DNA of 64,000 bases, taken from positions 1,123,326 through 1,187,325 of the forward strand of contig JACCIC010000179.1 in the NCBI GenBank assembly GCA_018907035.1, given 5' to 3'. This document shows, in pieces, positions 50,494 to 53,720 of this stretch; position 1 is the first letter of the stretch, and every line of letters starts with the position of its first letter. The position numbers were made by a program, and so were the translations under genes. The notes under the pieces were generated by a model. The model had not been told where the DNA came from. It searched no databases and worked only from the letters and a program-made list of their open reading frames with translations. This DNA is from Sycobia sp. Sy_11. Its lineage: Eukaryota; Arthropoda; Insecta; Hymenoptera; Epichrysomallidae.

Positions 50494-53400
50494 CCCCCCC
50501 CCCCCCCCCCCCCCCCCCCCCCCCCCCCCCCCCCCCCCCCCCCCCCCCCCCCCCCCCCCCCCCCCCCCCCCCCCCCCCCCCCCCCCCCCCCCCCCCCCCC
50601 CCACCCCCCCCCCCCCCCCCCCCCCCCCCCCCCCCCCCCCCCCCCCCCCCCCCCCCCCCCCCCCCCCCCCCCCCCCCCCCCCCCCCCCCCCCCCCCCCCC
50701 CCCCCCCCCCCCCCCCCCCCCCCCCCCCCCCCCCCCCCCCCCCCCCCCCCCCCCCCCCCCCCCCCCCCCCCCCCCCCCCCCCCCCCCCCCCCCCCCCCCC
50801 CCCCCCCCCCCCCCCCCCCCCCCCCCCCCCCCCCCCCCCCCCCCCCCCCCCCCCCCCCCCCCCCCCCCCCCCCCCCCCCCCCCCCCCCCCCCCCCCCCCC
50901 CCCCCCCCCCCCCCCCCCCCCCCCCCCCCCCCCCCCCCCCCCCCCCCCCCCCCCCCCCCCCCCCCCCCCCCCCCCCCCCCCCCCCCCCCCCCCCCCCCCC
51001 CCCCCCCCCCCCCCCCCCCCCCCCCCCCCCCCCCCCCCCCCCCCCCCCCCCCCCCCCCCCCCCCCCCCCCCCCCCCCCCCCCCCCCCCCCCCCCCCCCCC
51101 CCCCCCCCCCCCCCCCCCCCCCCCCCCCCCCCCCCCCCCCCCCCCCCCCCCCCCCCCCCCCCCCCCCCCCCCCCCCCCCCCCCCCCCCCCCCCCCCCCCC
51201 CCCCCCCCCCCCCCCCCCCCCCCCCCCCCCCCCCCCCCCCCCCCCCCCCCCCCCCCCCCCCCCCCCCCCCCCCCCCCCCCCCCCCCCCCCCCCCCCCCCC
51301 CCCCCCCCCCCCCCCCCCCCCCCCCCCCCCCCACCCCCCCCCCCCCCCCCCCCCCCCCCCCCCCCCCCCCCCCCCCCCCCCCCCCCCCCCCCCCCCCCCC
51401 CCCCCCCCCCCCCCCCCCCCTCCCCCCCCCCCCCCCCCCCCCCCCCCCCCCCCCCCCCCCCCCCCCCCCCCCCCCCCCCCCCCCCCCCCCCCCCCCCCCC
51501 CCCCCCCCCCCCCCCCCCCCCCCCCCCCCCCCCCCCCCCCCCCCCCCCCCCCCCCCCCCCCCCCCCCCCCCCCCCCCCCCCCCCCCCCCCCCCCCCCCCC
51601 CCCCCCCCCCCCCCCCCCCCCCCCCCCCCCCCCCCCCCCCCCCCCCCCCCCCCCCCCCCCCCCCCCCCCCCCCCCCCCCCCCCCCCCCCCCCCCCCCCCC
51701 CCCCCCCCCCCCCCCCCCCCCCCCCCCCCCCCCCCCCCCCCCCCCCCCCCCCCCCCCCCCCCCCCCCCCCCCCCCCCCCCCCCCCCCCCCCCCCCCCCCC
51801 CCCCCCCCCCCCCCCCCCCCCCCCCCCCCCCCCCCCCCCCCCCCCCCCCCCCCCCCCCCCCCCCCCCCCCACCCCCCCCCCCCCCCCCCCCCCCCCCCCC
51901 CCCCCCCCCCCCCCCCCCCCCCCCCCCCCCCCCCCCCCCCCCCCCCCCCCCCCCCCCCCCCCCCCCCCCCCCCCCCCCCCCCCCCCCCCCCCCCCCCCCC
52001 CCCCCCCCCCCCCCCCCCCCCCCCCCCCCCCCCCCCCCCCCCCCCCCCCCCCCCCCCCCCCCCCCCCCCCCCCCCCCCCCCCCCCCCCCCCCCCCCCCCC
52101 CCCCCCCCCCCCCCCCCCCCCCCCCCCCCCCCCCCCCCCCCCCCCCCCCCCCCCCCCCCCCCCCCCCCCCCCCCCCCCCCCCCCCCCCCCCCCCCCCCCC
52201 CCCCCCCCCCCCCCCCCCCCCCCCCCCCCCCCCCCCCCCCCCCCCCCCCCCCCCCCCCCCCCCCCCCCCCCCCCCCCCCCCCCCCCCCCCCCCCCCCCCC
52301 CCCCCCCCCCCCCCCCCCCCCCCCCCCCCCCCCCCCCCCCCCCCCCCCCCCCCCCCCCCCCCCCCCCCCCCCCCCCCCCCCCCCCCCCCCCCCCCCCCCC
52401 CCCCCCCCCCCCCCCCCCCCCCCCCCCCCCCCCCCCCCCCCCCCCCCCCCCCCCCCCCCCCCCCCCCCCCCCCCCCCCCCCCCCCCCCCCCCCCCCCCCC
52501 CCCCCCCCCCCCCCCCCCCCCCCCCCCCCCCCCCCCCCCCCCCCCCCCCCCCCCCCCCCCCCCCCCCCCCCCCCCCCCCCCCCCCCCCCCCCCCCCCCCC
52601 CCCCCCCCCCCCCCCTCCCCCCCCCCCCCCCCCCCCCCCCCCCCCCCCCCCCCCCCCCCCCCCCCCCCCCCCCCCCCCCCCCCCCCCCCCCCCCCCCCCC
52701 CCCCCCCCCCCCCCCCCCCCCCCCCCCCCCCCCCCCCCCCCCCCCCCCCCCCCCCCCCCCCCCCCCCCCCCCCCCCCCCCCCCCCCCCCCCCCCCCCCCC
52801 CCCCCCCCCCCCCCCCCCCCCCCCCCCCCCCCCCCCCCCCCCCCCCCCCCCCCCCCCCCCCCCCCCCCCCCCCCCCCCCCCCCCCCCCCCCCCCCCCCCC
52901 CCCCCCCCCCCCCCCCCCCCCCCCCCCCCCCCCCCCCCCCCCCCCCCCCCCCCCCCCCCCCCCCCCCCCCCCCCCCCCCCCCCCCCCCCCCCCCCCCCCC
53001 CCCCCCCCCCCCCCCCCCCCCCCCCCCCCCCCGCCCCCCCCCCCCCCCCCCCCCCCCCCCCCCCCCCCCCCCCCCCCCCACCCCCCCCCCCCCCCCCCCC
53101 CCCCCCCCCCCCCCCCCCCCCCCCCCCCCCCCCCCCCCCCCCCCCCCCCCCCCCCCCCCCCCCCCCCCCCCCCCCCCCCCCCCCCCCCCCCCCCCCCCCC
53201 CCCCCCCCCCCCCCCCCCCCCCCCCCCCCCCCCCCCCCCCCCCCCCCCCCCCCCCCCCCCCCCCCCCCCCCCCCCCCCCCCCCCCCCCCCCCCCCCCCCC
53301 CCCCCCCCCCCCCCCCCCCCCCCCCCCCCCCCCCCCCCCCCCCCCCCCCCCCCCCCCCCCCCCCCCCCCCCCCCCCCCCCCCCCCCCCCCCCCCCCCCCC

Positions 53401-53720
53401 CCCCCCCCCCCCCCCCCCCCCCCCCCACCCCCCCCCCCCCCCCCCCCCCCCCCCCCCCCCCCCCCCCCCCCCCCCCCCCCCCCCCCCCCCCCCCCCCCCC
53501 CCCCCCCCCCCCCCCCCCCCCCCCCCCCCCCCCCCCCCCCCCCCCCCCCCCCCCCCCCCCCCCCCCCCCCCCCCCCCCCCCCCCCCCCCCCCCCCCCCCC
53601 CCCCCCCCCCCCCCCCCCCCCCCCCCCCCCCCCCCCCCCCCCCCCCCCCCCCCCCCCCCCCCCCCCCCCCCCCCCCCCCCCCCCCACCCCCCCCCCCCCC
53701 CCCCCCCCCCCCCCCCCCCC
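50494..53720 (+). repeat. 3.2-kb near-pure poly-C tract
   Basis: Of 3227 bases, 3218 are C. The nine exceptions are A at 50603, 51333, 51871, 53080, 53427 and 53686, T at 51421 and 52616, and G at 53033. The longest pure runs are about 744 (51872-52615) and 729 (50604-51332) bases. Boundaries are abrupt: left flank CTTCTCCCA, right flank ACGCGCATTTC. The open frames through it (poly-Pro, poly-Gly) are meaningless. A homopolymer of this size is far outside the range of the other C/G runs in the window (about 8-19 bases), so a base-calling or assembly artefact is the leading explanation. Confidence 0.9.

Follow-up and report, generated by a model that had tools for sequence, protein, structure and literature searches.

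A 3.2-kb poly-C tract upstream of matched Rap1GAP exons in the wasp Sycobia sp. Sy_11 is very probably a sequencing or assembly artefact

We have analysed a stretch of 64,000 nucleotides (the window) from the assembly GCA_018907035.1 of the wasp Sycobia sp. Sy_11 (contig JACCIC010000179.1, positions 1,123,326 to 1,187,325 of the forward strand), which carries the Rap1GAP (Rapgap1) gene on its minus strand and, upstream of the matched exons of this gene, a tract consisting almost purely of C. All positions given below are positions of the window. By direct letter count the tract at 50494-53720 was found to comprise 3227 bases (C 3218, A 6, T 2, G 1), exactly the length and the nine substitutions that an earlier note on this DNA had reported. 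Tandem Repeats Finder described it as a row beginning at 50490, with 3231 copies of C and 99% match. The tract and its two edges are the following:

50494..53720, plus strand: poly-C tract with nine substitutions, read here as a very probable artefact (base counts, Tandem Repeats Finder)
50481..50493, plus strand: left edge CTTTCTTCTCCCA, ordinary sequence that ends where the C's of the tract begin (flank composition)
53721..53740, plus strand: right edge ACGCGCATTTCTTC..., ordinary sequence (flank composition)

The substitutions stand at 50603 (A), 51333 (A), 51421 (T), 51871 (A), 52616 (T), 53033 (G), 53080 (A), 53427 (A) and 53686 (A), which corresponds to a rate of 0.28%, nine isolated letters per 3.2 kb, and divides the tract into pure C sub-runs of 109, 729, 87, 449, 744, 416, 46, 346, 258 and 34 bases, the longest being 744. 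Their positions fit a uniform spread (Kolmogorov-Smirnov p = 0.64); six of the nine are A, an excess over 1 in 3 that is only weak (p = 0.042). The borders are abrupt: on the left CTTCTCCCA is followed directly by the C's, and on the right the C's are followed directly by ACGCGCATTT. In the first 20 bases outside the tract the C content is 50% on the left and 30% on the right, and in the next 20 bases it is 20% on both sides. Thus the isolated substitutions and the sharp edges mentioned in the earlier note agree with the positions and with the flank composition, and the edges resemble ordinary sequence joined by a C run.

Three other descriptions of the tract were rejected. A coding reading could be proposed since all six frames are open over 1129-1192 codons, yet the products are mostly poly-proline or poly-glycine, and the frames are open because codons made of C or G only contain no stop. 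A longer repeat unit was ruled out: the 36 distances among the nine substitutions are all unequal, therefore no longer unit was copied within the tract. A target-site duplication was likewise ruled out, the longest word common to the 200-base flanks being 7 bases.

Compared with the rest of the window the tract is a lone outlier, not the tail of a continuous length distribution, and a chance origin is out of the question. The longest runs outside it, over the whole window, are 11 bases for C, 16 for G, 28 for A and 41 for T, so the tract is about 200 times as long as the next C/G run (16 bases). Besides the tract there are eight C runs, of 8-11 bases, and 8 and 12 G's stand at 62116-62136 with one base between them; the range of 8-19 bases given earlier for such runs holds at its lower bound but has to be lowered to 16 at its upper one. 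No other tandem array of at least 100 bases was present in the window among the Tandem Repeats Finder rows, therefore the region shows no general tendency to long repeats.

The gene next to the tract was identified through the Pfam Rap-GAP and dimerization domains and through the resemblance of its exon products to solved structures that carry the name Rap1 GTPase-activating protein 1. Among the best 120 of 3862 matches of a protein search, the top one was the protein of Nasonia vitripennis, which is 81% identical over 99% of the query, followed by that of Phymastichus coffea (79%, again over 99%). These matches place the host among the Hymenoptera, near the chalcidoid wasps. When the Nasonia protein was mapped onto the window, exons were found from 46797 down to 16608 on the minus strand:

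46459..46797, minus strand: most 5' Rap1GAP exon found, read in frames -2, -1, -2 (Nasonia mapping)
30892..31077, minus strand: Rap1GAP exon, Rap-GAP dimerization domain (Pfam, structure similarity, Nasonia mapping)
23497..23739, minus strand: Rap1GAP exon (Pfam, Nasonia mapping)
22093..22449, minus strand: Rap1GAP exon, Rap/ran-GAP catalytic domain; at its low end the match may include intron sequence (Pfam, structure similarity, mapping)
21284..21460, minus strand: Rap1GAP exon (Nasonia mapping)
20265..20678, minus strand: Rap1GAP exon (Nasonia mapping)
18000..18705, minus strand: Rap1GAP exon, frame -2 to -3 (Nasonia mapping)
16608..16766, minus strand: last Rap1GAP exon matched (Nasonia mapping)

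From the most 5' of the matched exons the tract is 3.7 kb away on the upstream side, and none of these exons overlaps it. Since residues 1-153 of the Nasonia protein have no convincing match anywhere in the window, two placements are left for the tract, a 5' intron of over 17 kb or sequence that precedes an alternative first exon; judged from the exon mapping, the intron is the probable one. Hence the placement in a Rapgap1 intron proposed previously stands as regards the gene and is only likely as regards the intron. An exon may be missing at the place where the tract now stands; there is no sign of one.

Several further features of the window were recorded. The longest A/T run is the 41-base T run at 54373-54413, 650 bases to the right of the tract. 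Dinucleotide repeats (TA, TC/GA) are dense and short, at many sites from 779 to 63055, none of them reaching 100 bases. Outside the tract CpG is over-represented (observed/expected about 1.5), and neither RNA families at the gathering score nor tRNAs were found in the window. An open frame at 2312-2908 on the minus strand, with weak coiled-coil-type matches, is perhaps an exon of a neighbouring gene.

Two of the Rap1GAP exons contain breaks of the reading frame. The exon 46797-46459 begins and ends in frame -2 but has frame -1 at 46624-46487, a segment 96% identical to Nasonia, which makes two breaks; in the exon 18705-18000 the frame changes from -2 to -3 inside a CAG/CAT repeat near 18272-18289. 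Altogether there are three breaks per about 2.6 kb of Rap1GAP exon matches, and the frame changes of both exons were seen by tblastn against all five relatives compared. In the proteins of two relatives (P0001, P0002) the motifs from both sides of each break stand within one protein. Among the 120 listed relatives, 2 had every one of the three strict motifs set for the first exon; at the second break of this exon a looser motif pair was found in 24 and a stricter one in 6; and both motifs surrounding the third break were found in 58; these low counts have to be read with the strictness of the motifs and with the many entries that are isoforms, partial or distant. That relatives read through where the frame is broken here suggests that indels stand uncorrected in this assembly, as error-prone reads would leave them.

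The contigs of 84,980 prokaryote species were scanned for at least 152 consecutive C's or G's. This yielded 35 stretches, that is 34 tracts after two adjacent chunks of one record had been merged. The same kind of tract thus occurs in unrelated assemblies: almost pure C/G runs, hundreds to thousands of bases long, with abrupt edges and few substitutions, in unrelated taxa, and in one case of nearly equal length within a large contig. Unlike the wasp tract, most are shorter (32 of the 34 measure 153-678 bases, the two longer ones 2290 and 3072), and 21 either stand at a contig end or have an N no more than 60 bases away, 17 of them being within 60 bases of the end itself, which is a pattern of assembly trouble. 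For instance, the 2290-base tract (L005) stands beside an N block and extends to the contig end, and the draft of Streptomyces CHD11 has five C/G runs of 153-196 bases (L002, L013, L017, L018, L024), of which three lie at the end of a scaffold and two adjoin N. The closest counterpart of the wasp tract is in a Thermomonas metagenome-assembled genome (MAG):

L008:6496-8000 + L023:1-1567: poly-G run of 3072 bases in a Thermomonas MAG contig

This G tract lies well inside a contig of 1.1 Mb and has 18 substitutions, 15 of them to the complementary base and 13 within 214 bases. It is probably an artefact in the public record. The style of the MAG name matches an id printed in PMC8012365, and from the name style the record would belong to that project, which used R9 nanopore reads with Canu, Racon, medaka and a final Illumina polish; the main text of PMC8012365 does not mention the bin label BATAC. 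Two further interior tracts (L006, L015) have the same style of MAG name.

The flanks of five of the 13 interior tracts were scanned with Pfam in 18 pieces, eight from the Thermomonas record and ten from L026, L029, L006 and L001, interior tracts such as L030 and L032 being left out. The two sides of the Thermomonas run carry different genes, NAD synthase on one side and CoA ligase on the other. Because it is length and placement that speak for it, with no gene interruption seen, we infer rather than assert that the prokaryote tracts are artefacts.

Natural and synthetic C/G homopolymers offer a second comparison. The G/C tracts of Caenorhabditis, which are maintained by DOG-1, are homopolymeric C/G like the present one and lie in non-coding DNA, where the present one probably lies too. 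According to PMC2211496, C. elegans is rich in such tracts with lengths of 18-32 bp, and human has 200 G/C tracts of 18 or more; with 3227 bases the wasp tract is outside this natural range. Kilobase poly(dG)-poly(dC) is made by Klenow exo- from a seed of about a dozen bases, as PMC5224630 describes, and its product is a uniform C/G duplex like our tract, but it was made in the tube from free oligonucleotides, unlike a genomic locus. On a far smaller scale, and leaning towards artefact, systematic error was behind most poly-G 6-mers in early Illumina reads (PMC2943903). No kilobase poly-C artefact of an insect assembly was among the literature matches listed, which is no claim that such cases are absent.

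Taken together, it is very probable that the 3.2-kb tract is a sequencing or assembly artefact that arose from a short natural C run, as the earlier note had suspected; this is the best supported reading, as yet unproven, and our verdict is drawn from the tract's length, from the set of tracts compared with it and from the frame breaks in the exons nearby. A natural C run of tens of bases at most would have stood between CTTCTCCCA and ACGCGC, reads would have failed or lost register at it, and base calling or consensus building would have inflated it to 3.2 kb. Nothing inside a homopolymer marks its length, so that it can be lengthened at the calling, consensus or graph stage. The nine isolated letters would be residual base-call errors, about what an imperfect consensus leaves. 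The assembly is presumably a long-read one, and the manner of growth is likewise presumed; granted an artefact, we give long-read calling or consensus an even chance of being its source.

Several observations weigh against the artefact. The window contains no N letter, and on both sides of the tract it continues with no contig end in sight; correspondingly, 13 of the 34 prokaryote tracts are neither at a contig end nor at N. No gene interrupted by a tract was detected in the five interior cases out of 13 whose flanks were scanned, a weak test, since several pieces had no family at all. In 2.9 million viral contigs no run of 152 C was found, therefore such runs are not everywhere; an A-run control, made on the viral contigs only, gave no run of about 152 A either. 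The Thermomonas run differs from the wasp tract (six of nine C to A, evenly spread) both in the type and in the clustering of its substitutions, so that the process was not identical. Finally, the frame breaks of the Rap1GAP exons may be real variants.

The artefact could also have been produced by short-read graph building or gap filling, in which a self-overlapping word made of C only is looped until it fills a gap of estimated size. The 21 prokaryote tracts at contig ends or N, as in gapped drafts, and in particular the 2290-base tract beside its N block, are what such a process would leave. A pure loop gives no isolated substitutions, whereas the wasp tract has nine, and the window is without N. 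Granted an artefact, we consider this origin unlikely, and among all explanations slightly more so.

Small wasps are often amplified ahead of sequencing. This favours another possibility, namely that in the end-repair or amplification step a short natural dG:dC run was enlarged by slippage of the polymerase and that the resulting real library molecule was sequenced faithfully. The Klenow reaction described in PMC5224630 took about 20 h with dGTP and dCTP and was run on free oligonucleotides, not on a run enclosed in a fragment with unique DNA on both sides. Moreover, according to PMC13061963 poly-G repeats were rare in untemplated synthesis with all polymerases tried. Enlargement in the library is thus rated somewhat below gap filling, both within the artefact reading and, a shade lower again, among all explanations.

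The expected direction of guanine oxidation is G to T, and the six C to A substitutions out of nine are G to T on the other strand (p = 0.042), which, together with the clean edges and the evenly spread substitutions that slow decay of a real tract might give, would suit a genuine kilobase poly(dG)-poly(dC), grown in the wasp Rap1GAP intron by replication slippage or G-quadruplex-linked repair and stably replicated. Such a tract is nevertheless highly improbable, exceeding the 18-32 bp of C. elegans by a factor of about one hundred, with intermediate run lengths absent from the window, with no degenerating edge of the sort that might be expected, and with nearby exons that carry likely indel errors. 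Beside the artefact and the real tract, partial cases, such as a genuine run some hundreds of bases long to which further length was added in error, may take the remainder.

As an artefact the tract matters for curation only: it gives a false length, it may attract stray reads, and it opens six frames of more than 1,100 codons, mostly poly-proline or poly-glycine. If it were true, it would be about a hundred times longer than the tracts guarded by helicases of the DOG-1/FANCJ type, and a genuine tract of this kind would challenge what is known of the passage of polymerases over long guanine runs.
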